A DNA stretch of 42,746 nucleotides, from assembly GCA_003153435.1 (NCBI GenBank), contig PLYR01000118.1:1-42746 (forward strand). The letters are read 5' to 3'. This document shows positions 11,530-40,000 of this stretch, piece after piece (position 1 is the stretch's first letter; the number at the start of each line of letters is the position of its first letter). Source of the DNA: Bacteroidota bacterium (GTDB lineage Bacteria > Bacteroidota > Bacteroidia > Palsa-965). Under the pieces are notes generated by a model, which worked only from the letters and a program-made list of their open reading frames with translations, ran no database searches and was not told the origin of the DNA. The translations under genes were made by a program, and so were the position numbers.

Positions 11530-14500
11530 ATGAAATACCATTTTTTGAGTTGTATTATTTTGTTATTCCTTGAACTGTTTTGCGTTTCTATTCCGGCCCA
11601 ACAAACCGCAACCGGAGATCAACCGGCAGACCCCTCCTCACAACTGAGTAAAAAGCGGAAATATTCTTATTTTGTTTCAGACCGGTCGAGTGAAACAGGC
11701 AAAACGGATATATATAAAGTTATACCTACAGACAAAGAACCTTCGCTGATCCTGATCCGGGGACATATTGATGTAGCAGAAAATCCATCCATTAAGAAAG
11801 CTAAAATTGTGGTTTACAATGCTTCCAACGAAGAAAAGGTTGGAATCTTCAATTCTTCCAATGATGAGCGGGTTGGGGTATACAACACCAACCCCCTCAC
11901 AGGTAATTACCTGCTGATACTGGTTCCCAATGTTAAGTATGTTTTCCAGGTGGATGTAGAAGGCTATGAAACTGCCAGACAACTCGTGGATGTTCCACTA
12001 AGAATTGATTATGAGATATGCAGGCAGGAAATAAAACTGAAAAAAAATGAGCAGCGGAAATCCACCCTCCTCATTCACAATTTTTTTTCAGACGAAAACG
12101 AAAAAGTATTTTTATTACGAGCGATTCCCGATTCACTTAACCATGACCTGGAATACCCAGCTCCCATAGCTGCTCCCAATAAATTCAACAAAAAGACAGA
12201 AAAGGAAAAAGCCTACATGACCATTGACGAGCTGGTAAAGAAGCAGGTTGAAGAAGAAAAAAAGAAACCGCTGGAGGCACTTAAAGCATTTAAAGCTGCA
12301 GATTACGAAACAGCTCTTCCACTCTATGCGTATCTCATTAAAAACGACCAGACAGACCCTTTCATTAATTACTATTACGGGGTATGTCTTTTTCATTCGA
12401 ATCAAAACAAAGCCAGGGCCATCAATTATCTGGAACTCGCCTCTCATTCTCCGAAAATTCCATACGATGTCTTTCTTTATTTAGCAAAGGCATATCACGT
12501 TTCCTATATGTTTCAGGATGGTTTGAAGGCGCTTGAATGGTACAAAAAGAAAGCGAAGCCGGATGAAGTGATTAAGAACAGGGTTGCTGAACTGATCAAC
12601 AATTGTAATAGCGGTAACACACTCATGTCCGAACAAGTGAATGTAGAGGTCATCAAACGGACTCCCATTGATGAAAAAAACATTCTCAGTTATTACAACT
12701 CAGATCTAATAAACGAAAAGCTACAGTACAAAACCGATTTCTTCAACTCACCCATTGATAAAAAACTGCATGCCAAACTCCTCATGTGCAAATCAGGAAA
12801 CAGTGAAATCATTCAGGTGAGCTATGGTCTTCAGGAACAAAATGGAAAAGATCTGTACAGGAATACTGTTTCTGCCAAAGGAGTAAGAGGGCAAAGCCAG
12901 ACATTGGGCCCTGATATCAATACACCCTATGATGACGATTATCCCTATGTGACGAAGGACCGTAAAACTCTTTACTTTTCATCCAAAGGGCATAACAGCA
13001 TGGGGGGATTTGACATCTTTAAATGCACCCGGGCCGATACACTAAGCCCTTGGTCCAAACCGGTGAACATGGGTTACCCGATCAATTCTCCCTACGACGA
13101 CATTCTGTATATCCCGGAAAATGAAGATGAATCAGCCTCATATTGTTCTAACCGTAAAAACGGAAAGTTTGAATATATCCAGATCAAGACCCCACAGAAA
13201 GAGCTTTCTTATTCCATTATCAAAGGACGTTTTTCCACAATGGATTCTTCCAACAACAAGAATGCAATCCTCACTGTTTCTAATGCAGAGAATGAAGAAA
13301 TAGCCGGAGTATACAAAACTAATGCAGAGAACGGACGCTACCTGATGGTGCTCTTATCCGGCACGTCATATCACCTAACGATTGAGTGTGATGGATTTCC
13401 TGAAATCAAAAGAAATTTTACCGTCCCGGAAAAAAAGGGTGACTTCATTCTCCGGCAGGAGATGCTCCTGAAAAACGATGGAGCCTTTCATGTGCTCACC
13501 CTTAATAATTATTTTTCTGAAGAGGAGTCGCAGAAGGCTGGTGCGCTTCAGGATGCTGAGTTAACAAAAGCTGATGCCGGGACTAAAGACAAAGCAAAAA
13601 AAGAAGCTCCTCAAATCAGCATGCTGAAATCAGGCAAATCAAAACGGTCGGAAGAGCAACTTGTAAAAGACGGAGAAATGATGAAACAGGCTAAAAGCAT
13701 GTATGATCAGGAAAAATATAAAGAGTGTGTGGAAATCTATCAGAGGCTTGAAATCGAGATCGATCTCGATCCTATCAGCTCCTATTATCTGGGGCTTGGA
13801 CTTTACTATTCAGCCAGGGATAAGTCTGATTGTCTGGAAGACCTTGAATTTGCTTCTACCTCTAAAACAGTGCCAGTGGATGTTTTTTATTTTCTTGGCA
13901 AAGCAAATCAGCTCAGCTACCGGTTCAGCAGGGCTATCAAATCATTTGAAAAATTCAAGCTCCTGGCCAGGCCGGCTGACCTCGGCAAATATGATGTGGA
14001 TAAGGAAATTCAATTCTGCAAGAACGGGATCCGTCTGGTCAATAACCCTGTAGTGTTGGAAGTCTACGACATGAAACAGGTTGAAAAAGAATCTGTACAT
14101 CTCTCCTTCACTCAACTCGAATCGGGAGCAAAGCTGCTGATAACGCCGGATGATCTGCGCTCTGAGATTGACAAAAAGAAAAATTACAAGCCTATCCTCT
14201 TTCTTTCGGCCGACAAATCAACCATCTTGTTTTCAAGCTACGGAACAGATGAATCAAACGGCAAAGACATTTACAAGCTGAACCAATTTTCAAATGGCAA
14301 ATGGAGCCCCCTGCCACAGAATCTGAGTACCATTAATAGTCCCTTGGACGAAGAGTTCCCCACCCTTTCTGCTGATGGAAAAACTCTTTACTTTGCATCG
14401 AAAGGCTTCGACTCCATGGGAGGATATGATCTTTTCAAAAGTAGTTGGGACGAAACGACCATGAACTGGTCTCCTCCTGTTAATTTAGGTGCTCCAATCA

Positions 14501-14535
14501 ACTCCCCTTTTGATGACATTTATTTTCTTGAATAA
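11530..14535 (+). CDS. PorE-like CRD-TPR-PD40 protein with internal duplication, no OmpA domain
   Basis: 1001 residues. The signal peptide is near 1-24. Two copies of the same domain series follow. Copy 1: a carboxypeptidase-regulatory-like domain (CRD, ~73-172), a short NFFSDENEK motif, a TPR region (~245-365, ADYETALPLYAYLI) and PD40 propeller blades (~468-530, YPYVTKDRKTLYFSSKG and SMGGFDIFK). Copy 2: CRD (~561-650), NYFSEEESQ, TPR (~705-830) and PD40 (~940-1001, FPTLSADGKTLYFASKG and SMGGYDLFK). PorE of the T9SS has CRD, TPR and PD40 parts plus a C-terminal OmpA-like peptidoglycan-binding domain; that last part is absent here. The role is probably envelope scaffolding, perhaps linked to T9SS or gliding (inference). 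A promoter lies upstream and a terminator downstream. Confidence 0.8.
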   Translation: MKYHFLSCIILLFLELFCVSIPAQQTATGDQPADPSSQLSKKRKYSYFVSDRSSETGKTDIYKVIPTDKEPSLILIRGHIDVAENPSIKKAKIVVYNASNEEKVGIFNSSNDERVGVYNTNPLTGNYLLILVPNVKYVFQVDVEGYETARQLVDVPLRIDYEICRQEIKLKKNEQRKSTLLIHNFFSDENEKVFLLRAIPDSLNHDLEYPAPIAAPNKFNKKTEKEKAYMTIDELVKKQVEEEKKKPLEALKAFKAADYETALPLYAYLIKNDQTDPFINYYYGVCLFHSNQNKARAINYLELASHSPKIPYDVFLYLAKAYHVSYMFQDGLKALEWYKKKAKPDEVIKNRVAELINNCNSGNTLMSEQVNVEVIKRTPIDEKNILSYYNSDLINEKLQYKTDFFNSPIDKKLHAKLLMCKSGNSEIIQVSYGLQEQNGKDLYRNTVSAKGVRGQSQTLGPDINTPYDDDYPYVTKDRKTLYFSSKGHNSMGGFDIFKCTRADTLSPWSKPVNMGYPINSPYDDILYIPENEDESASYCSNRKNGKFEYIQIKTPQKELSYSIIKGRFSTMDSSNNKNAILTVSNAENEEIAGVYKTNAENGRYLMVLLSGTSYHLTIECDGFPEIKRNFTVPEKKGDFILRQEMLLKNDGAFHVLTLNNYFSEEESQKAGALQDAELTKADAGTKDKAKKEAPQISMLKSGKSKRSEEQLVKDGEMMKQAKSMYDQEKYKECVEIYQRLEIEIDLDPISSYYLGLGLYYSARDKSDCLEDLEFASTSKTVPVDVFYFLGKANQLSYRFSRAIKSFEKFKLLARPADLGKYDVDKEIQFCKNGIRLVNNPVVLEVYDMKQVEKESVHLSFTQLESGAKLLITPDDLRSEIDKKKNYKPILFLSADKSTILFSSYGTDESNGKDIYKLNQFSNGKWSPLPQNLSTINSPLDEEFPTLSADGKTLYFASKGFDSMGGYDLFKSSWDETTMNWSPPVNLGAPINSPFDDIYFLE

Positions 14536-14881
14536 ATACTTGTTGCTGAACCCATCTTGTCAAAGGGTCTTTTTGACTCTTTTTGATTTGCAAAACGAGA
14601 CATCCTAACGCACCTTTGGCCGGTAATTCAGGTATATGCTTTTCTGAACCGAATTTTCAGCATATCAACTACATTCTATTACATCCCTCCTTCAAAGATC
14701 GGGCGCGCCCCCCGGTCTTTTTCTTTTACCTTCTCTTATCAAAGCTCCTCCCTAAGAGGTATTACCAGGCCAAACCTGTTCGAAATCAAGTATTTTACCC
14801 GAAATCCTACATTATTGTATCTGTTTTTCGTAAACCAATTTTGTTTTCGTAACTTGGTGTCATCTCAGCTTTCTCAACGCT
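14536..14881. other. 346-bp intergenic region
   Basis: No gene is supported here. It contains a weak hairpin at 14559-14577 (GTCAAA/TTTGAC arms, 7-nt loop, T-rich tail), the strong terminator at 14694-14727, and a possible -7 element (TAACTTGG, 14850-14857) about 25 nt before the next gene. A 90-codon open frame at 14583-14852 runs through the terminator and looks accidental. Confidence 0.6.
14694..14727 (+). terminator. Intrinsic terminator
   Basis: A 10-bp stem AAAGATCGGG (14694-14703) pairs with CCCGGTCTTT (14711-14720), one pair being a G-U wobble, around a 7-nt GC-rich loop. The stem runs straight into TTCTTTT. The T tract is on the plus strand, so it ends transcripts from the PorE-like gene and isolates the barrel gene downstream. 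Confidence 0.8.
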
Positions 14882-16189
14882 ATGCCCCAAAAGAGATTCA
14901 CTCTCATTATTTTTTGTTTCCTGTCTACTTCCGGCCTCTTTGCTTCCGGTAATGACAGTACAAAAATGAGTCTTCCTTCCGTACGACTCGGCGCGGGGAT
15001 GATGAGTTATTTTGGAAATGTAGGAACCCCTACACGGGTGGTTCCAAACAGCTTTGCAGACACACGGGCAGGCTTCAATCTAAACATTGAAGAGAGACTC
15101 AGCAATATCTTTGCTGTTTCTATTGATGGACTCTATGGGCACCTCTCCGGAAATGAACATAGTGCTACTGATAATCTTAATTTTGAAACAAAAGTGATAC
15201 ATGCCGGAATCAACTTGGTGCTTCCTTTTGATAATGGCATCATCATGAAGCAGGGTAAGTACAACCTCATTCCATTTGTTTCCATTGGCTTGGGTTATAT
15301 GACTTTTCAACCGTACGGGGACCTCACAGACAGTCAGGGGCGGCCTTATTATTACTGGACAGACGGTACCATCCGCAGTGTTCCACAAACCTCTCCCAAA
15401 GCAACGACTGCGGTTATGCTTCACCGCGATTATGTTTACAACACCCCGCTGGCAGCTTCTCAGTCGTCACTCACTATTCCTCTTGGCGTTGGGTTCAAGA
15501 TTAATTTCACTGAGAGTTTCGGATCCGACATTGGGTTTACTTATCATTATACGCTCACTAACCGTATAGATAATGCCAATACGGGCCCGACAGATAAATT
15601 TTTGTACACCTATGTTTCCCTTCATTATCGTTTCGGAGCAAAGAACAGCAATGATTACACTACCGAAGTTGACAATACCGATTCTGATGCCGACGGTGTG
15701 ATTGATTTGAATGACCAATGTCCAGGCACTCCAAAAGGAGTTAAGGTGGATGCTAAAGGCTGCCCTATCGATTCAGACAATGATGGAATTCCCGATTACC
15801 TTGATCAGGAGCCAAACTCTAAAGACGGCGCGGTGGTTGATGAACATGGGGTGACCATTAATTACAAGGAAGTAGCTGCCAAACACAAGGAAGAATTAAA
15901 GATGTCTGCGAAAATGGATTCTGTGAATGATGCCATGAGTAAATACTTCAACAACAGACCCCGTAAGGAAGTGCTTGACTCTATGGAAAGAAACCATGTC
16001 ATCGTTAAAGGAAAAGCTGGATCCAAAAAAATCCCGGCTGAATTCCAGGCTGTAGATAAAAATGGAGATGGCCTCATATCTGTTTCTGAGCTTACCTCCG
16101 CCATTGATGCATTCTTCTCCGGTGAGATGCCAGACATGAATGTTCAGAAGATCAATCGTCTGATTGATTATTTCTTTGAACAACTCTGA
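14882..16189 (+). CDS. Outer-membrane beta-barrel protein with TSP3 repeats and an EF-hand
   Basis: 435 residues. The signal peptide ends near LFASG. Residues ~30-255 alternate in beta-barrel fashion (VRLGAGMMSYFGNVG, VSIGLGYMTF, FLYTYVSLHYRFG) and resemble an OmpA-type 8-strand barrel. Residues ~265-310 are thrombospondin type-3 calcium repeats (DSDADGVIDLNDQCPGTP, then DSDNDGIPDYLD). Instead of an OmpA C-terminal domain there is a Lys-rich helical stretch and then a canonical EF-hand loop at 392-403 (DKNGDGLISVSE), with helices around it. The protein should span the outer membrane with a calcium-binding part in the periplasm or at the surface. The T9SS cargo gene starts 66 nt downstream. 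I know no named family with exactly this arrangement. Confidence 0.78.
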   Translation: MPQKRFTLIIFCFLSTSGLFASGNDSTKMSLPSVRLGAGMMSYFGNVGTPTRVVPNSFADTRAGFNLNIEERLSNIFAVSIDGLYGHLSGNEHSATDNLNFETKVIHAGINLVLPFDNGIIMKQGKYNLIPFVSIGLGYMTFQPYGDLTDSQGRPYYYWTDGTIRSVPQTSPKATTAVMLHRDYVYNTPLAASQSSLTIPLGVGFKINFTESFGSDIGFTYHYTLTNRIDNANTGPTDKFLYTYVSLHYRFGAKNSNDYTTEVDNTDSDADGVIDLNDQCPGTPKGVKVDAKGCPIDSDNDGIPDYLDQEPNSKDGAVVDEHGVTINYKEVAAKHKEELKMSAKMDSVNDAMSKYFNNRPRKEVLDSMERNHVIVKGKAGSKKIPAEFQAVDKNGDGLISVSELTSAIDAFFSGEMPDMNVQKINRLIDYFFEQL

Positions 16190-16255
16190 TGAGGAAGTAC
16201 CTGGCTTTCATGCTGTCCCTTTTTATTGAAGAATCTCTCCAAATCATTTAACAAC

Positions 16256-18826
16256 ATGAAAAGAATTTACCTGCTCATCGTGGCTTTTACATTCGGCTCT
16301 GTTTCATTGGTCAATGCTCAAGATTGGGTTGGCATGATGCGCAACCCGAAGATTCCGGTTCAGGAAGTACAGAAAGCTTTTTACAAATGGTATACTGAAA
16401 ACCGGAGGACAGAAAAAGAAACGACCGGAGAAGATGGATTAGTAGAATCTTTCAAGCGCTGGGAGAATTACATGGTACCCCGTAGCTATCCAGGTGGTGT
16501 GCGGCCCGAACCGGTAATCGTTGCTCAGGGTCTTGAGCAGTTCAGGAAAAAACATGAAAGCACTTCGATAACCCTGAATCAACCCAACTGGAGCTATGCA
16601 GGTAACCTCAGTGTGCCTACCGGTGGTGGAGACGGAAGGATCAATCATCTTCGCTTTTATCCAGGAAGCACCACGAAGATGTATGCCTGTTCCCCCGGAG
16701 GTGGATTATGGAAAACAACCAATGGAGGAACAAGCTGGAGCACCAACACCGATACTCTCCAAGATCTTACCATTTCAGATATTGCAATCAATCCGGTCAA
16801 CCCTCAGATCATGTACCTGGGAACGGGTGACAATGCCTCGCCCTGGTCGGGTCAAACTACCATCGGTGTTCTTAAATCTACGGATGGTGGAACTACCTGG
16901 AAAGCTACCGGGTTCAAGTACACCCTTCAGGCTACAGGCCCTTATTATATGGTGGTGAATGAACTGCAGATCAATCCCTCCAATCCGAATATGATTTGGG
17001 CCGCTACCAGTTTCGGATTATTCAGAACAACTGATGCCGGCGTTACCTGGACCAACATACTCAACGACAATATTCAAAGTCTGGAACTGGAACCTCTGCA
17101 CTCTTCTACGATTTATGCAGCTACCTATTCAGGACAGTTTTATCGTTCGGTGAATGACGGAACCACTTTCGCTCATGTCCAGAATGGCCTACCTCCCTTT
17201 GGAACAGGGATGACCATTGGTGTTTCTCCTGCAGATTCTAACCGCGTCTATATACTTGCGTTGGATTCGGCAAAAGGTTATTTCCATAGCTTGTATATGT
17301 CAACTGACCGTGGACAACACTTCACTTTAAAATCAAGCCGTGCCACCGGGGCACCCAATATTCTCGGAAGCACAGCAGCAGGTACCGACTCCAGCGGAAA
17401 TGGATGGTATTCTTTTACTATTGCTGTCTCACAAACCAATGCAGATACGGTATTTGTCGGTGGAATTGATCTCTGGCTTTCGGGAGATAAAGGCGTGACC
17501 TGGGGTTGCAAATCACAATGGTATGGGTCGGGAGCGCCTTATGTTCATGCCGATCAGCATCATCTGACCTTTGTTCCCGGAAGCGGAAACACCGTGTTTG
17601 CAGCTTGCGACGGTGGACTCTTCAAGACTACTGATCTCGGTACTACCTGGACCGACTACAGCAATAACCTTGAAATTGGTCAGCTCTACAGTGTGGGTGT
17701 TTCCACTTTAACACCCGGTCTTTACATCAGCGGATGGCAGGATAACGGCACCAACTATCCACTCCCTTCCTGGAATCAGCTTTATGGGGGTGATGGAGAA
17801 GTTTGTTTCATTGATCGTACCAACAATTCCAATCTGTTTGTTTCCTGGCAGAACGGAAATTTACTTTACTCCAACAACGGAGGCTCTTCTTTTAACAGTG
17901 CAACAACAGGTATTACAGAAACCGGACCGTGGACTACCCGTTGGCTGCAGGATCCTCAGAACCCAATCCTATTGTATGCCGGTTTTGTCAATGTATGGCA
18001 GTCGGGAGATTTAGGAAATTCCTGGGCTTCTTTAAGTAACTGGGGGACCTCCTCTATTGTTGCTCTGGAGGTAGCACCTTCCAACAATCAATACATCTAT
18101 GCAGCACAGTATGATTCTATTTTTATGAGCAATAATCAGGGCTCTACGTGGACCAATATAAACGGCAATTTACCTTTAAGTCAGGCGTATCTCACCGATA
18201 TTGCCGTGGATGCATCCAACCCCTTAAAAGCTTTTGTGACCTTCTCAGGTTACACCGCCTCTGCCAAAGTTTTTGAAACAAAGAATGGAGGACATAGCTG
18301 GATTAATCTTTCTGTTGGATTACCCAACCTCCCGGTGAATACGATTGTGTATCATGCGAATAGTCCGGATGGAATATATGTTGGAACAGATAAAGGAATT
18401 TATTACCGCGACAGTACCATGAATACCTGGGCAAGTTATAACACAGGACTCCCCAATGTGATGGTGAATGACCTGGCTATGTTCACACCTAACAATACTG
18501 TCGTTGCAGGAACGTGGGGAAGAGGTACCTGGGAATCACCGGCAGCATTTTCGGCAGGTATTTCAGAATTCCATTCTACAGCAGGAATAAATGTATATCC
18601 TAACCCGGGAAATGGGAAAATGACGGTACAGGCAAGTGGACTTGAAGAGGGAGAATATGTTTTGGAAGTTGTTGACTTACTCGGACAGACCATTCTCCAT
18701 CATAAGCTTTCCATTGATGGTAATCTTCAGAAAACAATCGATTTATCTACTCAATCTCCCGGAGTTTACATTCTGTCTTTTAGAGGATTGCATCTACAGA
18801 TGGAAAAAAAGGTGATTGTAAACTAG
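16256..18826 (+). CDS. T9SS-exported sortilin/BNR-repeat propeller protein
   Basis: 856 residues from the ATG at 16256; the frame is open to a TTG 30 nt earlier, but the ATG begins a clean signal peptide (MKRIYLLIVAFTFGS to VNAQ). Residues ~110-770 hold many Asp-box/BNR and VPS10-like blades: TTNGGTSWS, STDGGTTWKATG, TTDAGVTWTNI, TTDLGTTWTDY, NNQGSTWTNI and ETKNGGHSWIN. These form one or two large beta-propellers as in sortilin-like proteins and some xyloglucanases; no glycosidase site could be assigned. Residues ~779-856 are a T9SS type-A sorting domain (NVYPNPGNGKM, LLGQTI, SPGVYILSF, KKVIVN), so the protein is exported by T9SS and probably attached to the surface or released. The function is most likely binding or degradation of external polymers. 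Confidence 0.88.
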   Translation: MKRIYLLIVAFTFGSVSLVNAQDWVGMMRNPKIPVQEVQKAFYKWYTENRRTEKETTGEDGLVESFKRWENYMVPRSYPGGVRPEPVIVAQGLEQFRKKHESTSITLNQPNWSYAGNLSVPTGGGDGRINHLRFYPGSTTKMYACSPGGGLWKTTNGGTSWSTNTDTLQDLTISDIAINPVNPQIMYLGTGDNASPWSGQTTIGVLKSTDGGTTWKATGFKYTLQATGPYYMVVNELQINPSNPNMIWAATSFGLFRTTDAGVTWTNILNDNIQSLELEPLHSSTIYAATYSGQFYRSVNDGTTFAHVQNGLPPFGTGMTIGVSPADSNRVYILALDSAKGYFHSLYMSTDRGQHFTLKSSRATGAPNILGSTAAGTDSSGNGWYSFTIAVSQTNADTVFVGGIDLWLSGDKGVTWGCKSQWYGSGAPYVHADQHHLTFVPGSGNTVFAACDGGLFKTTDLGTTWTDYSNNLEIGQLYSVGVSTLTPGLYISGWQDNGTNYPLPSWNQLYGGDGEVCFIDRTNNSNLFVSWQNGNLLYSNNGGSSFNSATTGITETGPWTTRWLQDPQNPILLYAGFVNVWQSGDLGNSWASLSNWGTSSIVALEVAPSNNQYIYAAQYDSIFMSNNQGSTWTNINGNLPLSQAYLTDIAVDASNPLKAFVTFSGYTASAKVFETKNGGHSWINLSVGLPNLPVNTIVYHANSPDGIYVGTDKGIYYRDSTMNTWASYNTGLPNVMVNDLAMFTPNNTVVAGTWGRGTWESPAAFSAGISEFHSTAGINVYPNPGNGKMTVQASGLEEGEYVLEVVDLLGQTILHHKLSIDGNLQKTIDLSTQSPGVYILSFRGLHLQMEKKVIVN

Positions 18827-19981: not shown

Positions 19982-22900
19982 ATGAGAATACTAGTCAAGA
20001 TCCTGATCTGGAGTTCAAGCATTTTTGTTGCCCTTATATTACTCTTGTTGTTGACCTTGTCATTACCCCAAACACAGCGTTTCCTTACACATAAAGCCGA
20101 AACCTATCTGGGAGACAAGATTAAAAGCAAGGTGCGGATTGAAGAGATCGGTGTCTCTTTTCCGAAATTTATTCATCTGAAAAATATTTATCTGGAAGAC
20201 CGGCATCAAGACACGCTGTTCTCCTGCAGTTCCCTGAAAATCGATATCAGCTTGTGGGGCCTCTTATCAAAGGAAGTTAACATCAGCGCTATTGAGATAG
20301 AAGGCAGCACTGCTCATGTAAAAAGAGCTAAAGGGGATAGTGCTTTCAACTATAGTTTCATTCCACAGGCCTTTAGCTCCCCTGCTGCTCCAAAAAAAAC
20401 GACCTCCTCTGTATCCAAACCCTGGATTATCTTTTTGGGCAGTGTTCACTTAAAAGATGTTTTTCTAACCTGGCATGATGAACAAGGAGGACTAAAAGCG
20501 GACCTTCACCTTGGAAAGCTGGAGGCAGATTTAGAAACCTTGAATCTTCCGGATAGGAAGCTCCAGTTCAGGAACATCCTGCTCGCAGAAACCCGAGTTG
20601 CCATTATACAAACCCCTTCAAGGATTGTTGCCAAAGACACCAGCCGTTCAGCCCCATTCGACATAGGTCTTTCAGGGCTGGAACTCTCAAAGGTTAATTT
20701 TTCATTCCTCGACAGCTCCAAAGGAGTAAACCTCGATTTAAGCCTTGGCAAGCTCTCCGCACTGGTTAACAAGATTGATTTATTGAAACAGATCGGAGAC
20801 CTGAATTCAGTGATTCTTTCTGATACAAAATTCGCGCTTCGTACCCGTAAAGTGTCAGATAAATCCGATGCTGTTTCATCTGGTGGACCAGGATGGGTTT
20901 TTTCTTTAAAGAAACTTGAACTTTCAGGTAATACATTTTCATTTGATGAGACAGACAAAAAACCAAAAGAACAGGGAATAGACTATTCACACCTTTTAAT
21001 TTCAAACATTACCGCAGGCGCCAAAAACATCTATGTAGGAGGAAAGCTTATAAAGGTGGAGCTTGATCAGTTAGCGCTAAAAGAAAAGTGCGGCCTGGAT
21101 CTGGAAAAACTTAAAACGCGATTTACCTATGATTCTACACTTCTGGAACTGGCCGGCCTCGATCTGAAAACCAGCCGAAGTCATATATCTGATTTTCTAT
21201 CACTCTCTTTCCCCTCTCAGCAGGCGCTCCGGGATTCTATTTCGAGTCTATTATTCAAAGCTGATTTAAAGAATACACTCATCGGCTTGAATGATATCCT
21301 GCTTTTTAAACCAGATTTATTAGACAGCAGTATTTTCAAAAAGAACACTCCTGCTCAAATCAGATTGAATGCCCTGGTAAATGGGACCTTAGCAGAATTG
21401 CAAGTCCACCGCTTCGACTTCTCCACCGAGCAACATACAAGAGTGCACTTCCAGGGAGTACTAAAAAACGTGCTAAGCTCCTCTTCATTTTATGCAGATA
21501 TCCGTCTCCAGGAATTCTCCACTGCAAGGAATGATTTACAGGCATTATTTAAGCCCGCAGCCTTTCCGAAATCCCTGCAACTTCCCGCATTATTAAATCT
21601 TTCCGGTAACTTCAAGGGGAGCCTGAAGGAATTCGTTGCAAATGCTGACCTCCATTCTTCCTCCGGCTCCCTTTCAGCAGATTTGATATTAGACACCCTC
21701 TCAGGCAATGGTCAAACTCATTATGATTTAAATGCGAGAGCCACCTCCCTCGACCTGGGAGCAATACTGAAGCAGCCAGGTATTCTGGGACCCGTCACCT
21801 TCACCGCTACAGCAGTAGGACAGGGTTTGGATACGAACACCTTAAAAGCCACCTTATCTGTTTGTGCTGACAGTGCATTTTTCAAAGGTTATGTATACAA
21901 CAACCTGACACTGGATGGGCAGTTGGAAAAGCAATCATTCGCAGGAAATGTAAACCTGGACGATAAAAATATGGTGTTTAACCTAACTGGAAATATCGAC
22001 GTCGGCCAACATCCACATTATCTCTGCACCCTCGATTTAAAAGGAGCTGAGCTCGGTGCCTTAGGATTCACCAAGGATGGAATTCGCATTAGTGCCTTGC
22101 TTACATCCGACTTAAACAGTGCTCGTGGCAAAAACATGACCGGCAAAGTTCGATTGGTCAAGGGCTTGATGATCAAAAATAATACCCCGTACCCGATCGA
22201 TTCCATGGTCTTGCAATCAAAATATACCGAGGAAGGAGCAGATATCAGTCTCCGGTCTGACTTCCTGACCGGTGATTTTAAAGGCAACCTCCTGCTCTCT
22301 GAATTGCCTGCCTCTTTCTCGAAACTAATAAAAACATATTTTAATCCGGGTGAGACACCCTCCACAGATCATTTACAGCCTCAGGATTTCCAATTCACTC
22401 TGAATCTGCTCCATCAGGATCCTTTTTCTGCTTTATTCGTTCCGGGTCTTACCAAACTAAAATCAGCCTATATCAAAGGGTCCTTTGACAGTGAAGCGAA
22501 AAAGCTCTCTCTCGATGCTGGTGTTCCACAATTTGCTTATCAAGGTATTCTGGTTGATAGCTTAAAATTAAAATTCGATTCCGATCCCGGGCAAATGAAT
22601 TACGCCATCCGGCTGATTCAGCTTTCTGACTCTTTAATGAAAATAGAAAATATGGTCCTTCAGGGAAACATCAAGCAGAACAATATTGCATTTGGTCTCC
22701 AAACATCAAAGCGGGATCATAGTGAAATGATTTCTCTTGCAGGGAATCTGAAAACAAAAGGAAATGATTATGAGCTTCGATTCGACCCTGAACTTGTTCT
22801 TAACAAGAAGAGGTGGGTTATGAATCAGAGTAACTATCTCCTTTGGGGAACTAGGGAATTCAATGCACATCAAATAGTGCTCAGCGAAGGGAACCAGGAA

Positions 22901-24937
22901 ATTTCTTTATCAAGCGAGGACAGCAGTGGTCACTCTCCTTTGAAAATAAAATTTAAAGATTTTGACATTTCAACATTTTCACAGATAATTGAAAACGATA
23001 GAACCCTTGTAACAGGAGTGCTGGAAGGAGAGGTCATTATTAAAGATCAGAACAAACGAGCAGCATTTACTTCAGACATTTCTCTCAAAGACTTTGCTTA
23101 TTTGGAAAGACCTATAGGCACCATTACCCTTCATAGTGACAATGAAATATCGGCCGACCAGTTTACTTTAAAATTATTACTGAACGGGAACGAAAATGAC
23201 CTTAGTCTGGATGGAAACTACACGGCAGGATCCAAAACTAACAACCTCAATTTCAAACTTGATATTCGAAACCTAAACCCCGCATCAGCAGAACCTTTTA
23301 TTTCAGGCAATGTGACCCGTCTTTCAGGAGGTGTGAGTGGCTCTATGGCTATCACCGGAAATGCAGAATCGCCCAACATGCAAGGTTCATTGAAACTCAC
23401 CCAATGCACTCTTAAACCGGCTATCCTAAATTCACTGCTGATGATCCCCGAAGGGAAGCTGCTCTTTACTCCCGGGCGTGTGCAGTTTAGCTCCTTTACC
23501 CTACTCGATTCACTTAACCATAAAGCAGTTCTTAGCGGTTATGCCGACTTGCATGATTTCTCAAATATTCCTTTTGACCTGAAGTTGAAAACGAACAATT
23601 TCCTGGCACTGAATACGACGGCAAAAGACAATCCTCTGTATTTCGGAACCGTGTATCTCGACAGTGATATACATCTGCATGGTACACCTGATGCACCCGT
23701 AGCTGATGTTATTATGCGACTCAATAAAGGCACCTCTATTACTTATATGAACCCTGTCGATGCAGGTGTATCGGAAGAAAGTAAAGGAGTGGTAGAATTC
23801 GTTGATACCGCAAATTCATTCTTTCTCCAGAAAAATATAATGGCCCGACAGGATGTTGCAGTGGAGAAAAAAAAGAACATAACTGGAATCCAGCTGAACG
23901 CGGTCATAGCAGTGGATAAGTCCACTAAACTAAAAATCATTCTTGATCCTTCATCCGGAGATTCGCTCGTCGCCATTGGCTCCGCACAATTAACATTTAC
24001 ACTCGACCCCAATGGAAGGACGAGTCTTAACGGCCGCTATAAACTTAGTGATGGAAGTTATCACCTGGCGATTGATGAAGTGATCCGCAGGAATTTTAAA
24101 ATCGAATCGGGGGGTACCATCACCTGGTCGGGAGATCTTATGGATGCAGATATAGAACTCAGTGCGGTTTATAAAGTGCATACCTCACCGCTTGATCTTG
24201 TACAGAGTCAGTTAGCAGGAATGAGTGAAGCCCAAAAGAATACGTTCAGGCAAAATCTGAATTTCCTGGTTTATCTGAAGATGAGCGGACCGATCGCTCG
24301 GCCGGACCTCAGCTTCGACATTAAGCTTCCGACAGACCAGGTAAGCTCGTTAAACGGGACTATCACATCTAAACTGGAACAATTAAGAGCTGATGAAACG
24401 GAAATGAATAAACAAGTATTCGCCCTCCTGGCCTTAAATCGATTTCTTGCAGAAGATCCACTGGATAACTCCGGAGGAAACAATGCTCTTTCTTCCACGG
24501 CGCGATCGAGTGCCGGCAAATTACTTTCCGATCAACTGAATACACTTTCCGGAAAGTATGTTAAAGGAGTTGACCTCAACCTGGGTGTAGAATCTTACGA
24601 AGATTACTCAACCGGACAGGGCCAGGAAAGAACCCAGGTTCAAATGGCCCTCTCTAAAAGTCTGTTCAATTCTAAGGTGACCGTAAAAGTTGGGGGGAAT
24701 GTAGATGTAGAAGGCGACCGGGCCAAACAGAATAACGCCAGTGATGTAGCTGGCAATGTTGATATACAGTATAAGCTGACAAACGACGGAACCTATAAGT
24801 TGAAAGGGTTTCGGCAAAATGACTACCTGAACCCGATTGAAGGAGAAGTAACTAAAACAGGTTTCGGGGTCATCTTCACAAAAGATTTTAACAGAATAAA
24901 GGAGTTATTCCGGAAATCAGAATCATCGGTTGAATAA
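19982..24937 (+). CDS. tamB: TamB-family inter-membrane protein (AsmA-like/DUF490)
   Basis: 1651 residues. A single N-terminal membrane helix (ILIWSSSIFVALILLLLLTL) is followed by an AsmA-like start (LGDKIKSKVRIEEIGVSFPKFIHLKNIYLED) and a very long beta-rich middle of repeated short strands, which in this family builds a hydrophobic groove across the periplasm. The C-terminal DUF490/TamB domain is clear from ~1350: SVxLDxxxG-type strands, LVYLKMSGPIARPDLSFDI and LSGKYVKGVDLNLGVESYEDYSTG. The TamA/TamB pair was described as assembling autotransporters; newer work ascribes phospholipid transport to TamB relatives. In Bacteroidota the partner is the lipoprotein TamL, encoded 14 nt downstream. 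Confidence 0.92.
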   Translation: MRILVKILIWSSSIFVALILLLLLTLSLPQTQRFLTHKAETYLGDKIKSKVRIEEIGVSFPKFIHLKNIYLEDRHQDTLFSCSSLKIDISLWGLLSKEVNISAIEIEGSTAHVKRAKGDSAFNYSFIPQAFSSPAAPKKTTSSVSKPWIIFLGSVHLKDVFLTWHDEQGGLKADLHLGKLEADLETLNLPDRKLQFRNILLAETRVAIIQTPSRIVAKDTSRSAPFDIGLSGLELSKVNFSFLDSSKGVNLDLSLGKLSALVNKIDLLKQIGDLNSVILSDTKFALRTRKVSDKSDAVSSGGPGWVFSLKKLELSGNTFSFDETDKKPKEQGIDYSHLLISNITAGAKNIYVGGKLIKVELDQLALKEKCGLDLEKLKTRFTYDSTLLELAGLDLKTSRSHISDFLSLSFPSQQALRDSISSLLFKADLKNTLIGLNDILLFKPDLLDSSIFKKNTPAQIRLNALVNGTLAELQVHRFDFSTEQHTRVHFQGVLKNVLSSSSFYADIRLQEFSTARNDLQALFKPAAFPKSLQLPALLNLSGNFKGSLKEFVANADLHSSSGSLSADLILDTLSGNGQTHYDLNARATSLDLGAILKQPGILGPVTFTATAVGQGLDTNTLKATLSVCADSAFFKGYVYNNLTLDGQLEKQSFAGNVNLDDKNMVFNLTGNIDVGQHPHYLCTLDLKGAELGALGFTKDGIRISALLTSDLNSARGKNMTGKVRLVKGLMIKNNTPYPIDSMVLQSKYTEEGADISLRSDFLTGDFKGNLLLSELPASFSKLIKTYFNPGETPSTDHLQPQDFQFTLNLLHQDPFSALFVPGLTKLKSAYIKGSFDSEAKKLSLDAGVPQFAYQGILVDSLKLKFDSDPGQMNYAIRLIQLSDSLMKIENMVLQGNIKQNNIAFGLQTSKRDHSEMISLAGNLKTKGNDYELRFDPELVLNKKRWVMNQSNYLLWGTREFNAHQIVLSEGNQEISLSSEDSSGHSPLKIKFKDFDISTFSQIIENDRTLVTGVLEGEVIIKDQNKRAAFTSDISLKDFAYLERPIGTITLHSDNEISADQFTLKLLLNGNENDLSLDGNYTAGSKTNNLNFKLDIRNLNPASAEPFISGNVTRLSGGVSGSMAITGNAESPNMQGSLKLTQCTLKPAILNSLLMIPEGKLLFTPGRVQFSSFTLLDSLNHKAVLSGYADLHDFSNIPFDLKLKTNNFLALNTTAKDNPLYFGTVYLDSDIHLHGTPDAPVADVIMRLNKGTSITYMNPVDAGVSEESKGVVEFVDTANSFFLQKNIMARQDVAVEKKKNITGIQLNAVIAVDKSTKLKIILDPSSGDSLVAIGSAQLTFTLDPNGRTSLNGRYKLSDGSYHLAIDEVIRRNFKIESGGTITWSGDLMDADIELSAVYKVHTSPLDLVQSQLAGMSEAQKNTFRQNLNFLVYLKMSGPIARPDLSFDIKLPTDQVSSLNGTITSKLEQLRADETEMNKQVFALLALNRFLAEDPLDNSGGNNALSSTARSSAGKLLSDQLNTLSGKYVKGVDLNLGVESYEDYSTGQGQERTQVQMALSKSLFNSKVTVKVGGNVDVEGDRAKQNNASDVAGNVDIQYKLTNDGTYKLKGFRQNDYLNPIEGEVTKTGFGVIFTKDFNRIKELFRKSESSVE

Positions 24938-24951
24938 TTACAAAAACAGAT

Positions 24952-27258
24952 TTGTTTAAACAGGCTCTACATATTTCTTTTCTGTTGTTCATCCTTGTGA
25001 TTTCAGGGTGCCGGAACACCCGTTATCTTAAATCAGATGAGAGCCTCTATACGGGAGCTAAAGTCATTATACGTTCTGACCTCCCAGTTAAAAAGAGGTC
25101 TTTAAAAAACGAACTTGAAAAGATCGCTTTTCCAAGACCGAATACTGCGTTTCTGGGTATTCGCTACAAATTATGGTTCTATAATGTTGGGAATAAGGGC
25201 AAACAAACAAAAATAAGACGTTGGATTAAGGAAAAGGCCGGGCAGCCTCCCGTGCTGGCTTCCCAGCTTCACCCCGATAAAACAGTTTCCGTTATGCGAA
25301 GCCGATTAAACAGCAGGGGATATCTCCATGCTCAGGTCTCCTCCGAGGTAACTTTGCGCAAAGGGAAAACAACGGTTATCTATACTGCTGAGATAGGCAC
25401 ACCTTTCTTATTGGGTAAAGTACTCTTTCCCTCTGGCAGCGATACCCTGAGTCTTAAGGTACGTGCAACTGAGAAAGAGAGTCTTCTAAAAGAAGGGATG
25501 CAATACGATCTTGGAGTGTTGAAGAATGAACGAGTCAGGATTGATGGGATATTAAAAGATTCAGGCTATTATTATTTTAATCCCGATTATCTCCTATTCA
25601 AAGCAGATACCAGCAATGTAAACAAAAGAGTAAATATCACCATTGCTCTAAAGCAGGATATACCGGACAAAGCTAGACAGGCGTATCATATTGGTAAGAT
25701 CTTTTTCAATATCAGATCTCGACTCATAACCGACAGCTCAACCAGTAGTCGTTGCATAGTTCTAAGCGGATGTTGCTACTACCAGGATCAGGATAGTGCT
25801 TTCAGGCCGGAGCCGATCCTTCGATCGGTGTTTCTTAAAAGTGGGAATCTGTATAGTCATAAGGATCATAGGTTAACCATTAGCCGCCTAGTTGGAATGG
25901 GTGTATTTAGTTATGTAGGGGTAAAATTCAAAGAACCTGACTTTCACAATACCCCAATTCTGGATGTCTATATTGATTTAACTCCAATGCCCGGAAAATC
26001 TGTTACTGCAGAGCTGGAGGCCGTCACTAAATCAGATAACTATACTGGACCGGAGCTTACGATTAGTTATAAGAACAGAAATTTATGGAGAGGTGCGGAG
26101 TTGCTTGCTGTGAACATGAACGGAAGCTTTGAGACCCAGCTAACAGGGAACTCCGCAGGATATAGCTCTTACGAGGTTGGGTCTAATGTTCAATTATTCA
26201 TTCCCCATTTTATTACCCCGTTTCCAATGAAACATGTTTCCGGCCTCTATGTCCCTAAAACAAAGATCGATCTGGGTATAAGTCTGCTCCAGCGAGTGAA
26301 TTATTTCAGCATGGATGTGATACATACGTCTTTTGGGTACCAATGGAAAGAGTCACTGCAAAAAGATCATTTGTTGGACCTGTTTTCGGTAAGCTTTGCC
26401 AAACTATTAAGTACCACTCCATCCTTCAATAACCTGTTAATTGAAAACCCATTTCTTAAAAAAAGTTTCCAGGAGCAGTTTATTATCGGATCTGACTACA
26501 CGTTCACCTATAATTCTCAGCTTGGGGTTCCTCATGCCAACCAATTTTATTTTAGCGGAAACCTCAACCCTGCTGGCAATGCAATCTTTGGAATCCAATC
26601 GCTGATGAGTTCCAGATCAGCTACAGATGCCAATCCATACCTAATCGGAGGTTATCCTTATGCACAGTACACAAGAATCACGACAGACACCCGTTATTTT
26701 CACACGTTTAATTCAAAGCACAAAATTGCTACCCGGTTAATTGTCGCTGCTGGTGTTCCATACGGAAATTCCAGTACTATGCCTTACACAAAGCAATTCT
26801 TCAGCGGGGGTCCGAACAGTCTCCGTGCATTTCCTGCACGCTCCGTTGGGCCGGGCTCTTACGTGATACCTTCGAATCAGACGGGGGCCTCTTTTCTCGA
26901 TCAATCAGGTGACATTAAACTGGAAGGCAATCTGGAATATCGTTTCCAGATTATCGGGCTTTTGAAGGGAGCTGCTTTCCTGGATGCGGGGAATGTATGG
27001 CTCGCGAGAAAAAACCCGCTAATGCCAGGAGGGGAGTTCAACATCGATACCTTCGAAAGCCAGCTGGCGGTTGGCACCGGTATTGGCTTAAGGGCTGATC
27101 TGAGCTTCTTCATCCTCCGTTTCGATTTGGGAATTCCCTTGCGTCGCCCAAACCTTCCTGAAAGTGATCGTTGGGTCGGAAACCGAATCAACTTTGAGAA
27201 TCCGAACTGGAGAAGCAATAACCTGGTACTGAATATTGCAATCGGCTATCCATTCTAA
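24952..27258 (+). CDS. tamL: TamL-like outer-membrane lipoprotein, Omp85 family
   Basis: 768 residues. The N-terminus is a lipoprotein signal ending in VISGC, with a short RNTRYLKSDESLYTGAKV stretch typical of Bacteroidota TamL. POTRA-like domains follow (~30-330: YTGAKVIIRSDLP, SRGYLHAQVSSEV), then a 16-strand Omp85/D15 barrel (~360-768). The barrel carries the conserved loop-6 region near FFSGGPNSLRAFPARSVGPG (the VRGF-like position reads LRAF) and ends in NLVLNIAIGYPF with a terminal aromatic residue. The start must be the TTG at 24952: the frame has a stop 21 nt upstream and no ATG in between. It works with TamB in outer-membrane assembly or lipid transfer. Confidence 0.9.
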   Translation: MFKQALHISFLLFILVISGCRNTRYLKSDESLYTGAKVIIRSDLPVKKRSLKNELEKIAFPRPNTAFLGIRYKLWFYNVGNKGKQTKIRRWIKEKAGQPPVLASQLHPDKTVSVMRSRLNSRGYLHAQVSSEVTLRKGKTTVIYTAEIGTPFLLGKVLFPSGSDTLSLKVRATEKESLLKEGMQYDLGVLKNERVRIDGILKDSGYYYFNPDYLLFKADTSNVNKRVNITIALKQDIPDKARQAYHIGKIFFNIRSRLITDSSTSSRCIVLSGCCYYQDQDSAFRPEPILRSVFLKSGNLYSHKDHRLTISRLVGMGVFSYVGVKFKEPDFHNTPILDVYIDLTPMPGKSVTAELEAVTKSDNYTGPELTISYKNRNLWRGAELLAVNMNGSFETQLTGNSAGYSSYEVGSNVQLFIPHFITPFPMKHVSGLYVPKTKIDLGISLLQRVNYFSMDVIHTSFGYQWKESLQKDHLLDLFSVSFAKLLSTTPSFNNLLIENPFLKKSFQEQFIIGSDYTFTYNSQLGVPHANQFYFSGNLNPAGNAIFGIQSLMSSRSATDANPYLIGGYPYAQYTRITTDTRYFHTFNSKHKIATRLIVAAGVPYGNSSTMPYTKQFFSGGPNSLRAFPARSVGPGSYVIPSNQTGASFLDQSGDIKLEGNLEYRFQIIGLLKGAAFLDAGNVWLARKNPLMPGGEFNIDTFESQLAVGTGIGLRADLSFFILRFDLGIPLRRPNLPESDRWVGNRINFENPNWRSNNLVLNIAIGYPF

Positions 27259-35235: not shown

Positions 35236-36750
35236 ATGAAACTCATTTCAAACCGCCTGGTTCTTTTCTGTAGTCTTCTGTTGGCTTTCACAGCCTCCCT
35301 CTCTGCACAGACTATCACCCGGACTCAGATACATAACAATGCCCGGCCATTTACTACTTACCATTTTACCGCCTCCTCCTCTAATATTCAACCTGCAACA
35401 AGTTGTCCATCAGCAGGAGGAAATGTGACCACCCCTTCCTGGGTAACCGTAGGGAGCAGCAACGTAGGTATGGCTTATTGCTGGGGTGGTTTTTCATCTC
35501 TTACCTCCTTTACTTCAGGACTTTCAAACGGCAAATCAGCCGGAGATAATGACTGTTCAACAAACGGTGATTGCTGCGAAACATGTGCTCTTGGAGTAGA
35601 TTGCTCCGGCTTTGTTTCTCATGCCTGGGGACTTACCACCAAATACAGCACGACTACCATACCCAACATTTCAACTGCTTACAATAGTGCGTCGCAGGTT
35701 AAACAGGGAGATTGCTTTAACCTGTCGGGATCGCATGTGAGGCTTGTAGATACCAATTATGTAAACGGAAGCTTCCTGCTTATGGAATCGTCCGCGGTCG
35801 ACTGGAAAGTTTCCTACCGTACCTATTCTGCTTCCCAACTTACTTCTTATACACCCCGCTGGTATGTGCATGTAGATACTTCTGGAAACACTCCCATCTG
35901 TAACCGGTATTATGCTACCCTGCCTTACTCGAATTCTTTCGAACCAGCATGGGAAACGGATTCTTGCAATAGCGGACCACAACGGTCGCCTGATAAATAC
36001 TGGAAAGGATATACCGGGGGCACCTCTCCCGATGGAGATGATAACTGGCACCGCGACGATTATACAGGAGGTGAATGGACTTCTCCAACGAGTGGTCAAT
36101 ACACCCCTGCGGCTTCGAATGGCAGTTATAGTGCCCGTTTTCATAACGCACCACCTCCTGCTGGTTCGATCGGTGCACTTGACCTCTACCTGGATCTTTC
36201 AGGGGCAGGTTCCAAGACGATCAAGTTCGATTATATCCACAATGAAGCATCACCTGCTCCGTTCGCGTTCAATGTTGAGCTATCTACCGATGGAGGTATA
36301 AACTTCTCGAATGCTCTTTTGACTATAACGTCGGCTCAGGTTTCTACCTGGACCACACAAACGGTAAACACCACAGCAACGTCGTCCACCTGTGTGCTGA
36401 GGTTTGTTGTTTCTGACAAAGGAAATCAGGATGTAGGAATAGACAATTTGAGTGTGACACCAACAGTGGTGACCGGCATTAATTCCCCGGATGCCCCGGA
36501 TCTCTTTTCACTCTACCCGAATCCAACAGACGGCACGATACTCAATGGAACCTTACCAGAAACCGGGTGTCCGACGATGGACATTCACATTTATAGCATA
36601 CTTGGCAGTGAAGTAACTTCCAGTCAGGTAAATATAAGCGGGAATAGTTTCTTCCTTCATTTCACGAATGGGGAACTTGCTTCCGGAGTATACCTATTTG
36701 TAGGAACCTCCGGCAATAAAAAATTCATTAAGAAGATTGTTGTCAACTAG
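35236..36750 (+). CDS. T9SS-exported NlpC/P60-like cysteine hydrolase
   Basis: 504 residues. The signal peptide ends in LSAQ. Residues ~75-215 look like an NlpC/P60-type papain-like fold: AYCWGG, the nucleophile Cys123 in GVDCSGFVSHAWG, His167 in SGSHVRLVD, and a polar third position in FLLMESSA. The region around 105-123 has extra cysteines (DCSTNGDCCETCALGVDC), probably disulfides. Residues ~235-410 are a jelly-roll-like domain (DLYLDLSGAGSKTIKFDYIHN, FNVELSTDGGINF) of the MAM/carbohydrate-binding kind. Residues ~423-504 are a T9SS type-A sorting domain (FSLYPNPTDGT, IYSILGSEV, SGVYLFV, KKIVVN). It probably cleaves peptide or amide bonds outside the cell, perhaps peptidoglycan of other bacteria; the substrate is not proven. 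Confidence 0.83.
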   Translation: MKLISNRLVLFCSLLLAFTASLSAQTITRTQIHNNARPFTTYHFTASSSNIQPATSCPSAGGNVTTPSWVTVGSSNVGMAYCWGGFSSLTSFTSGLSNGKSAGDNDCSTNGDCCETCALGVDCSGFVSHAWGLTTKYSTTTIPNISTAYNSASQVKQGDCFNLSGSHVRLVDTNYVNGSFLLMESSAVDWKVSYRTYSASQLTSYTPRWYVHVDTSGNTPICNRYYATLPYSNSFEPAWETDSCNSGPQRSPDKYWKGYTGGTSPDGDDNWHRDDYTGGEWTSPTSGQYTPAASNGSYSARFHNAPPPAGSIGALDLYLDLSGAGSKTIKFDYIHNEASPAPFAFNVELSTDGGINFSNALLTITSAQVSTWTTQTVNTTATSSTCVLRFVVSDKGNQDVGIDNLSVTPTVVTGINSPDAPDLFSLYPNPTDGTILNGTLPETGCPTMDIHIYSILGSEVTSSQVNISGNSFFLHFTNGELASGVYLFVGTSGNKKFIKKIVVN

Positions 36751-37041: not shown

Positions 37042-40000
37042 ATGAAACGAATCATACAAAGCTGGTATATTTCGGTGGGTCGGGGATTCCTGGTTTTCAT
37101 ATTGCTGTTTGCTTCAGTCCAGTCTAAGGCTCAGGTAGTGATCAATGAGTTGGGCATCGCGCCAACCTGTTTAAACTGTAATGATGGTCAGGGGGGTGAA
37201 TTTATTGAGCTCTTTAACGCGGGTCCTTGTCCGGTTGATTTGAGTTGCGACGTAATTGTCTTTGCTGGACTCTCCCCAGGTCCTGGCTCAGAAGGTTGGA
37301 CCCTTACTATTCCCTCAGGAACTATTCTAGCCCCTTGCTCTTATTATTTAATTGGAGGAGGCGGAACCGCTTCTGCCGGAGGAGGATGGACCACACTGCC
37401 TGCAGGAGGGGCTTCCTGGAACAACCCGGGTGCAGCAACCGTTAATCTTCAAGTTAATTCTTGCAGTACGAGTGGATTAAATACAATAATCCCGGGACTA
37501 CTGGATGATGCACAAGGGCAGGTATCGTTATTAAATTCTTCCGGTTCCGTAATCTCTTCTGTTTCTTATAATTCAGGAAACAATGCCGGGTGTTATCCCG
37601 GAGCATCCAATGCACCGGCGGGCTGCACCGCTATTGGTTCATTCACCATCCCTGATTCGCCCAATAATGTAAATGATACCTGGACCCCGACTACGAACAG
37701 TCACGGACTGGCGTTACGTAGTGACGGCACTTACATTGCCATTGCCACTGGAGGAACACCCGGAGCAGCCAATACACCGGATGTAGCCCAAACGGCCTGC
37801 ACCAATTCTTCCATCACTGCGGAATCAACCACTCGCACGGTAGCCAGTTGCGGATTGAATAATGGAAGTGTTACGTTTGGCACCCCAACCGGAGGAACCG
37901 CGCCCTATCTGTACAATTTCAACGGAGGAGGTTTTTCTGCCACAACGTTTTATTCAGGACTTGCCCCAGGACCTTATTCACTGATTGTGCAAGATGCAAA
38001 TGGATGCACTTTTTCAAGGACTGTCAACATAGGAAATGATCCTGGCCCTTCAGCGTTAGTTTCAACACCGGTGAATGCTAACTGTAGCGGCAGTAATGGA
38101 TCTATAACGCTCGGCGCCGGCACTGGCGGGGTAGGCCCGTTTACCTATAATTTTAATAGTGCAGGAAGTTTTTCTGCTACTACTGTGTACAATGGTCTTG
38201 CGCCGGGAACTTACCCGGTTATTGTTCAGGATGTGAATGGATGTACTTTCCCAACTACAGTTACCATTGGCAATAACCCCGCGCCTACAGCTTTGGCAAC
38301 GACCCCGGTTAATTCCAACTGCGGAGCCAGTAATGGATCTGTGACTATTGGTGCTGTTACTGGAGGCACAGGACCCTTTACCTACAACTTCAACAATCTG
38401 GGTTTTTCAGCAACTACCTCTTTCAATTCATTACTTGCAGGAACCTATCCGGTTGTGGTGCTTGATGCTAATGGTTGTAATTTTCCAACGACGGTAACCG
38501 TAGGGAACAACTCCAGTCCCACTGCAATAGCCACTACTACCGTCAACGCCCATTGCGGAAGCAATAATGGATCTGTGACGATGGGCGCTGTAACCGGGGG
38601 AACCGCACCCTATGTATATAATTTTAACAGCCTTGGGTTTTCGTCAACCACTGTTTATAGCGGTCTGGCTCCGGGCTCTTATCCGCTTACGGTGAAAGGA
38701 TCTTTTGGATGCACCTTTTCAACAACCATTGTTATCAGTAATAATCCCGGCCCAACCGGCCTGGCAGTAACTCCGGCCAATTCAACCTGTGGTAACGCAA
38801 ATGGTTCTGTTACCCTTGGAGCAGTAACCGGTGGGACCGGACCTTTTACCTATAATTTCAATTTTGCCGGGTTTGCATCTACTACCTTCTTTAATGGCTT
38901 GAGTGCAGGAACCTATCCTGTTACGGTACGGGATGCAAATGGTTGTTCTTATTCATTGATCGTAACCATCTCTGATAATCCAGGACCTACTGCGCTTGCT
39001 ACTACTGCCGGAAACACCAGTTGTGGTAACACCAATGGCACCGTTACGATTGGAGCAGTCACAGGAGGAATTGGCCCCTTCACCTATAACTTCAACAATA
39101 CCGGATTTGCTTCCACTACTTTTTTCAGCGGACTTTCCACCGGATCGTATCCAATCATTGTTCAGGATGCCAATGGCTGTACATTTCCTACAACGGTAAC
39201 GATCAACAACAATCCGGGGCCCACCGGCCTGGCCACCACTTCAACACTTTCCAGCTGTGGGGGCTCCAATGGAAGTGTTACGATGGGTGCTGTCACCGGA
39301 GGAACAGGCCCTTTCAGTTACAATTTCAACGGACTGGGATTTTCAGCTGCGACTGTTTATAATGGACTCGGCCAGGGTACTTATCCCGTCATCGTAAAAG
39401 ACGCAAATGGTTGCACGTTCCCTACTACTGCAACAGTGAATAACACAGCAGGCCCAACAGCTCTTTCGACTACCTCTGTCAATTCAACCTGTGGCAACCC
39501 AAACGGGGCCGTAAATATTGGAGCGGTGACCGGCGGAGTGGGGCCTTATGTTTATAATTTCAACAGTGCCGGGTTTTCTGCAAGTACTGTTTACCCCGGG
39601 CTTACACCCGGAATTTATCCTGTGATCGTACAGGATGCCAATAACTGTACTTTCCCGACAACAGTAACAGTCTCAAATACGGCAGGACCCTCTGCCATTG
39701 CTGTAACGCTTACGAATGCAAACTGCGGGTCTAGTGATGGAACCGCTACACTGGGTTCTGTTACCGGAGGAACTGGGCCTTTTACCTATAATTTTAATTC
39801 TTTAGGTTATTCGAGCACGCTCTTTTATGGCTCTTTAGCGGTGAACACTTATCCGCTTCTTGTAAAGGATGCAAATGGATGTGTATATACCACAACTGTT
39901 AGCGTTAGTAACAACGGTGGCCCCACGGCCCTGTCTACTACTCCCGTCAGTGCTACCTGCGGAGCCAGTAATGGATCTGTTACACTCGGAACGGTTACCG

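Follow-up and report, generated by a model that had tools for sequence, protein, structure and literature searches.

The gene at positions 11530 to 14535 of the window (the whole 42,746-nucleotide stretch of Bacteroidota DNA analysed here) raises the question of what kind of protein carries two PorE-like modules in one chain and stops inside the second. The initial annotation had described a PorE-like protein duplicated end to end, each copy in the order CRD, N(F/Y)FS-E motif, TPR, PD40, without a peptidoglycan-binding domain. The open reading frame starts with ATG and encodes 1001 aa. When residues 1-545 were aligned with residues 546-1001 by BLASTP, there was one main alignment (69-528 with 557-1000). 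In it, 155 of 468 columns were identical (33% identity; E 6e-67), and the offset between the copies fell from 488 residues at the start to 472 at the end, in agreement with the initial annotation. The protein is thus duplicated along its length and, as had been pointed out, copy 2 terminates at INSPFDD (residues 990-996), the counterpart of INSPYDD (residues 518-524).

A Pfam scan of the protein (E<=0.1) gave PD40 (PF07676) at 56.9 bits, above the gathering cut-off of 20.9. The CRD-like matches stayed below cut-off, and TPR matched weakly. The same scan detected no OmpA domain, as the initial annotation had stated. SPOR was not found by Pfam, nor was a T9SS sorting domain by Pfam or NCBIfam. 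Positions 14400-14890, translated in three frames and read by eye, revealed no OmpA-like stretch behind the stop that a frameshift near 14535 could have cut off. Inspection of the window protein and of L033 by eye gave no canonical lipobox.

We built a single-module profile HMM (492 positions) from 24 long single-module homologues, in which the domain order is TPR, PD40 propeller, CRD and a short motif. Given this natural order, the arrangement CRD-motif-TPR-PD40 is a permuted register, and the module order originally proposed had to be given up. The window protein matched the profile three times: residues 42-231 at profile positions 300-479, residues 238-702 at 5-471 and residues 710-1000 at 6-296. 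The last and first matches join into one complete module and, with the middle match, make two. A half-blade (residues 42-70) stands in front of copy 1 but is missing from copy 2. The chain therefore represents two complete modules in circularly permuted form, in the order half-blade-CRD-TPR-propeller-CRD-TPR-open propeller. The last propeller blade is where the chain is broken, between the strand ..INSPFDDIYFLE and KYSYFVSDRSSETGKTDIYKV. We conclude that the window protein consists of two complete TPR-PD40-CRD modules, circularly permuted and cut within one blade. Judged by the PD40 repeat, the INSPFDDIYFLE end would be strand A of that blade and the N-terminal piece strands B-C. The features, with their basis in brackets, are as follows.

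11530 to 14535, + strand: whole gene, circularly permuted double TPR-PD40-CRD protein, 1001 aa (ORF call, self-alignment, three profile matches)
11530 to 11601, + strand: probable signal peptide, residues 1-24, ending ..IPAQ (read from the sequence; fast-evolving in orthologue pairs)
11653 to 11739, + strand: N-terminal half-blade, residues 42-70, KRKYSYFVSDRSSETGKTDIYKV.., putative strands B and C of the last PD40 blade (profile positions from 300; half-blade HMM 22.4 bits; strand names after the PD40 repeat)
11740 to 12054, + strand: CRD 1, residues 71-175 (profile match 1, profile-profile alignment)
12064 to 12096, + strand: motif LLIHNFFSDE, residues 179-189, at the position of the first OmpA strand, a possible relic (hhalign ending on the OmpA-start motif of OmpA-type paralogues)
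12097 to 12249, + strand: linker 1, residues 190-240 (between profile matches 1 and 2)
12250 to 12627, + strand: TPR region 1, residues 241-366 (Pfam, single-module profile, 13-row profile against solved structures)
12643 to 13194, + strand: PD40 propeller 1, complete, residues 372-555 (Pfam, single-module profile)
13201 to 13479, + strand: CRD 2, residues 558-650 (Pfam, single-module profile, profile-profile alignment)
13495 to 13527, + strand: motif LTLNNYFSEEE, residues 656-666, at the second OmpA-start position, a possible relic (hhalign)
13528 to 13665, + strand: linker 2, residues 667-712 (single-module profile)
13666 to 14043, + strand: TPR region 2, residues 713-838 (single-module profile)
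14047 to 14532, + strand: PD40 propeller 2, open, residues 840-1001, without the second half of its last blade (profile match stops at 296 of 492)
14497 to 14532, + strand: C-terminal INSPFDDIYFLE, first half (putative strand A) of the split blade (self-alignment, single-module profile)

Full-length orthologues occurred in 13 of 395 genomes drawn from the class. Scans of individual groups found orthologues in 18 of 87 genomes of family f41 and 19 of 46 of family f34. The order of f31 contributed 1 of 3 genomes, and the family to which the window belongs 2 of 12. In total, 40 genomes from four families carry the double protein, at 38-70% identity to that of the window. In a draw of 395 genomes from the phylum, the window's own genome was the sole match at E <= 1e-100, indicating that the double protein is restricted and patchy.

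The orthologue set comprised 41 sequences from the 40 genomes, window included. Thirty-six were full length, and all of these had the same three profile matches. Three lacked the C-terminus (two at contig ends, whereas L124, from G444, is disrupted inside its contig and departs from the family at residue 607), and in two the N-terminus was missing (L125, cut by a contig end; L117, from G453, which contains an in-frame TGA). The C-terminus lay at profile position 296 or 297 in 38/38 orthologues that have one, and the N-terminal match began at 283-304 in 39/39. The stop followed INSPFDD after 5 (24 cases), 6 (9), 7 (2) or 8 (1) residues in the 36 full-length proteins. Linker 1 had a median length of 55 residues (n=30 of the 36, the window protein not among the 30) and linker 2 of 42.5 residues (n=36).

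When scored with a half-blade HMM made from 30 columns of the single-module alignment, 37 of the 39 real N-termini passed 3 bits and 26 passed 8 bits. Among 780 shuffled fragments, 12 exceeded 3 bits and none 8 bits (highest 7.4). The weakest real N-termini were those of L080 (1.0 bits) and L082 (1.8 bits). All 39 fragments keep the pattern aromatic/hydrophobic-S/T-N/D/T-R (YFVSDR in the window), and R52 and K63 are invariant in a 13-row alignment. Nine orthologue pairs were compared by dN/dS over the half-blade (28-31 codons); three were computable (0.19, 0.04 and 0.09), two had no change at all and four showed silent-site saturation. For the three computable pairs, the signal region gave 0.55, 0.43 and 0.14; whole genes gave 0.08-0.12 in pairs without saturation. 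The low half-blade values relative to the signal region indicate, on these short stretches, a constraint about as strong as that on folded domains. The N-terminal half-blade is thus conserved and, where measurable, under purifying selection about like the folded domains.

We compared the protein with the families to which it is related. Among NCBIfam models, its propeller-CRD part was nearest to CHU_0125 (NF053607; 148 bits, cut-off 620) and PorE (NF052230; 136.3 bits, cut-off 600). With PorE, the lipoprotein linking the T9SS and outer membrane to peptidoglycan in P. gingivalis, it has the TPR, PD40 propeller and CRD in common. Unlike PorE, whose order is TPR, WD40 propeller, CRD and OmpA_C-like domain, it has two modules in permuted order, no visible lipobox and no C-terminal peptidoglycan-binding OmpA domain, and its orthologues stop at the same place. 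The kinship to PorE proposed in the initial annotation is therefore supported for the module but not as membership of the PorE family. The CHU_0125 family of OmpA-like outer membrane integrity proteins shares the same module and likewise differs from the double protein, which has no OmpA domain and carries two modules in permuted form. According to the passages cited, PorE of P. gingivalis binds the barrel protein PorP (PMC9143113) and has been read as a CpoB-TolB-CP-Pal fusion tethering the outer membrane to peptidoglycan (PMC12204202).

PorE-like paralogues elsewhere in the genome had also been considered at the outset, and such genes were found. The window's own genome gave 35 matches to the PorE model, the best at 309 bits and none over cut-off. 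Eight ORFs covered both the propeller and the OmpA regions of the model, one of them (300 bits, contig C12) being cut by a contig end. By these matches, anchored PorE-like proteins are encoded in the genome, although none exceeds the NCBIfam PorE cut-off. At one locus (L023; G000 C7 43000-53000), three consecutive ORFs encode PD40-type PorE-like proteins of 697, 748 and 543 aa, of which the first alone reaches the OmpA region of the PorE model.

The closest homologue found was a 2086-aa open frame in the same genome (L021 7680-13937, G000 C100). It combines a single module with a long charged region and matches SPOR at 21.5 bits (cut-off 21); the SPOR end was profile-tested in this own-genome protein only. 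The closest homologues were 34% identical over residues 242-705, and the single-module profile gave 410 bits to the middle part of the window protein. These long proteins (~2000 aa) contain the same TPR-PD40-CRD module, also lack an OmpA domain and have a similar motif after the CRD, but they carry a single module, arranged in the natural order, and behind it a very long charged region. The window ORF has no such long coiled region or SPOR end and finishes inside propeller 2. A long single-module homologue was present in 29/29 double-bearing genomes checked (of 40) and in 51/51 f41 and f34 genomes without the double (open frames of 1032 aa or more were counted, several cut by contig ends). Present in 80/80 genomes checked, the long protein is a core gene and the double an accessory relative. 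No NCBIfam model exceeded its cut-off for this core protein. Co-occurrence with the long paralogue was uninformative, being complete with and without the double.

To place the duplication, we computed a tree of modules from 16 of the 36 full-length orthologues (both modules of each) and 24 single-module homologues. OmpA-type paralogues were scanned as well; none entered the tree, as they matched the profile only from position 186 on, so that the double is compared with the single-module type only. Modules A formed one clade and modules B another, each with 100/100 support. The two subtrees agree broadly, not exactly, with L072 placed differently. This pattern points to one duplication before the families parted.

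The CRDs are each followed by an N(F/Y)FS-E motif. Profile-profile alignments (hhalign) of CRD 1, CRD 2 and the single-module type, each with the stretch behind it, were made against five OmpA-type paralogues from the same genome. Each alignment ended on the motif N-x-F, facing the start of the OmpA domain (LNNIFFD), with probabilities of 97.0 (CRD 1), 98.8 (CRD 2) and 98.9 (single-module type). The motif is likely a relic of the first OmpA strand, a positional claim in that the hhalign scores come mostly from the CRD. In PorE, an OmpA construct is described in the cited part of PMC7192894 as starting at residue 534, directly after the CRD (441-527).

The T9SS translocon protein SprA was found in all 40 double-bearing genomes, over cut-off in 39. 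Comparison of 13 loci revealed no adjoining gene common to different families and thus no conserved partner gene. In f34, a methionine aminotransferase gene lies upstream in 5/6 loci and a nitrilase-family gene downstream in 4/6; in f41, a MurF-alanine racemase gene lies upstream in 2/4. These neighbours are housekeeping genes and were discarded as a clue to a partner.

The surroundings of the gene in the window, all on the + strand, were also recorded. Directly downstream (14882-16189) lies a gene for an outer membrane barrel-like protein with DUF6089 over cut-off, PorG (T9SS) at 49.5 bits (cut-off 130) and sub-threshold TSP3 and EF-hand matches toward its C-terminus. Two genes (16226-18826 and 35236-36750) encode proteins with a T9SS C-terminal sorting domain, the former also with Sortilin-Vps10-like repeats. 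TamL (24952-27258; 783 bits, cut-off 400) is preceded by a 1651-aa ORF (19982-24937) that may be TamB. At 37042-42744, and continuing beyond the window, a gene encodes a giant protein that resembles gliding adhesins, with SprB repeats in 10 stretches and a match to the Lamin Tail Domain.

Searches of solved structures with the window protein gave two matches at chance level. With the 13-row profile, the matches were to designed TPR proteins and, for the CRD, to one carboxypeptidase; the 60 matches listed of 97 included no propeller. Viral contigs yielded two pattern matches and no relative. In the open-licence papers searched, no description of such a double protein was found. The double protein combines permutation of a whole pair of multidomain modules with the lack of an OmpA domain, and this form is kept across at least four families. 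The likeness to known systems is partial. Work on Velcro-closed and circularly permuted propellers, based on tachylectin-2 (PMC4735018, in the part cited), describes permutation by motif expansion with a new start and stop, both chain ends coming together in a single blade. In that case a single propeller is permuted, whereas here a pair of multidomain modules lies between the blade halves. Sec13 and Seh1 are incomplete propellers completed by domain invasion motifs of a partner chain (PMC8907234, in the passages cited) and resemble the proposed closure of the double protein in that the completing element is distant in sequence. They are eukaryotic and unrelated, and the donor is another protein giving a whole blade. 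Such split or invaded propellers are precedents for the principle, not for this protein.

We propose, with a probability of roughly 0.5, that the protein is an exported periplasmic two-module scaffold whose N-terminal half-blade completes propeller 2 of the same chain. In the last blade of propeller 2, only the first strand would come from the C-terminus, while the N-terminus would supply the rest and lead straight into CRD 1. On folding, the half-blade would complete propeller 2 in cis and the molecule would close on itself. One module (M1) would then consist of TPR1, propeller 1 and CRD 2, and the other (M2) of TPR2, propeller 2 closed by the N-terminus, and CRD 1. Tied by two linkers of similar length, M1 and M2 would form a closed assembly. 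With the OmpA anchor lost, this would be a diffusible, bivalent scaffold holding two partners of the sort that PorE-like modules bind. Completion in cis is the simplest reading because the missing part of the blade sits in the same chain before CRD 1, and it is supported by the half-blade preceding CRD 1 as the blade precedes the CRD in single-module relatives. The duplication, the permutation, the exact cut point, the conservation of both ends and the purifying selection are borne out by the sequence comparisons and speak for this reading, as do the single clades of modules A and B and the propeller precedents; blade closure, its occurrence within one chain, the periplasmic location and the partners are inferred. 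Given that an OmpA domain and a sorting domain were not found and no lipobox is visible, the protein should be soluble and periplasmic. It may act as the free scaffold or bridge of the initial annotation, but one blade divided between the two termini points to an assembly that closes or polymerises rather than to two modules strung in a row.

Several observations weigh against this proposal. AlphaFold without homologues gave models of low confidence, with a mean pLDDT of 32.3 for the full-length single sequence and of 37.8 for propeller 1-CRD 2 when propeller 2 alone was aligned to it. Two N-termini fall at 1.0 and 1.8 bits on the half-blade HMM, and the 13 loci provide no conserved neighbour in support of a partner. 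The conserved ends could stem from descent from one event instead of structural need. This last point, and the fact that the half-blade adjoins the CRD in single-module relatives as well, would also suit a linear two-module scaffold in which the half-blade would be no more than a cap for CRD 1 or a remnant, with propeller 2 left open or closed by other means. We consider such a linear scaffold rather unlikely: the half-blade retains its propeller signature in 37/39 orthologues and, in the pairs that allow a measurement, changes at the slow pace of the folded domains; moreover, propeller 2 would miss strands that propeller 1 has.

Closure between chains, the half-blade completing propeller 2 of the next chain to give head-to-tail dimers, rings or periplasmic fibres, appears slightly less likely again. 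The permuted anatomy with its split blade also allows it, the long linkers would give reach, and partner-completed propellers are known from Sec13 and Seh1 (PMC8907234, passages cited). The present data do not separate closure in one chain, closure between chains and no closure; an argument from effective concentration favours the first. A shade more doubtful still is its extended form, a self-assembling periplasmic fibre or ring in which each open propeller accepts the next chain's half-blade, as an unanchored scaffold beside the T9SS and the peptidoglycan-bound PorE-like proteins. Such split-blade complementation might be compared in principle with donor-strand exchange.

It seems improbable that a different protein completes propeller 2 in the manner of Sec13 while the half-blade invades yet another, for example the core single-module paralogue. 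That paralogue accompanies the double in all 29 genomes checked, but its presence in the 51 same-family genomes without the double makes the co-occurrence weightless, and the missing piece is already in the chain itself. Two orthologues (L117 and L124) are interrupted in the assemblies that contain them, but an artefact, whether by frameshift, by misassembly or as the remnant of a gene whose normal OmpA end was lost, can be dismissed as highly improbable, mainly because the C-terminus, in all 38 orthologues that have one, falls at the same profile position, and also given their 38-70% identity to the window protein and the low whole-gene dN/dS of unsaturated pairs.

If the two ends close one blade, the protein would be a natural chain locked by its own termini or, with closure between chains, a case of split-blade polymerisation in the periplasm. 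Whereas single propellers are known in circularly permuted form, the permutation in this case extends to a pair of multidomain modules. As a soluble, unanchored pair of PorE-like modules, the double protein may be of use for studying what such modules bind. The protein further illustrates how, in evolution, a scaffold tied to peptidoglycan can come to lose its anchor.
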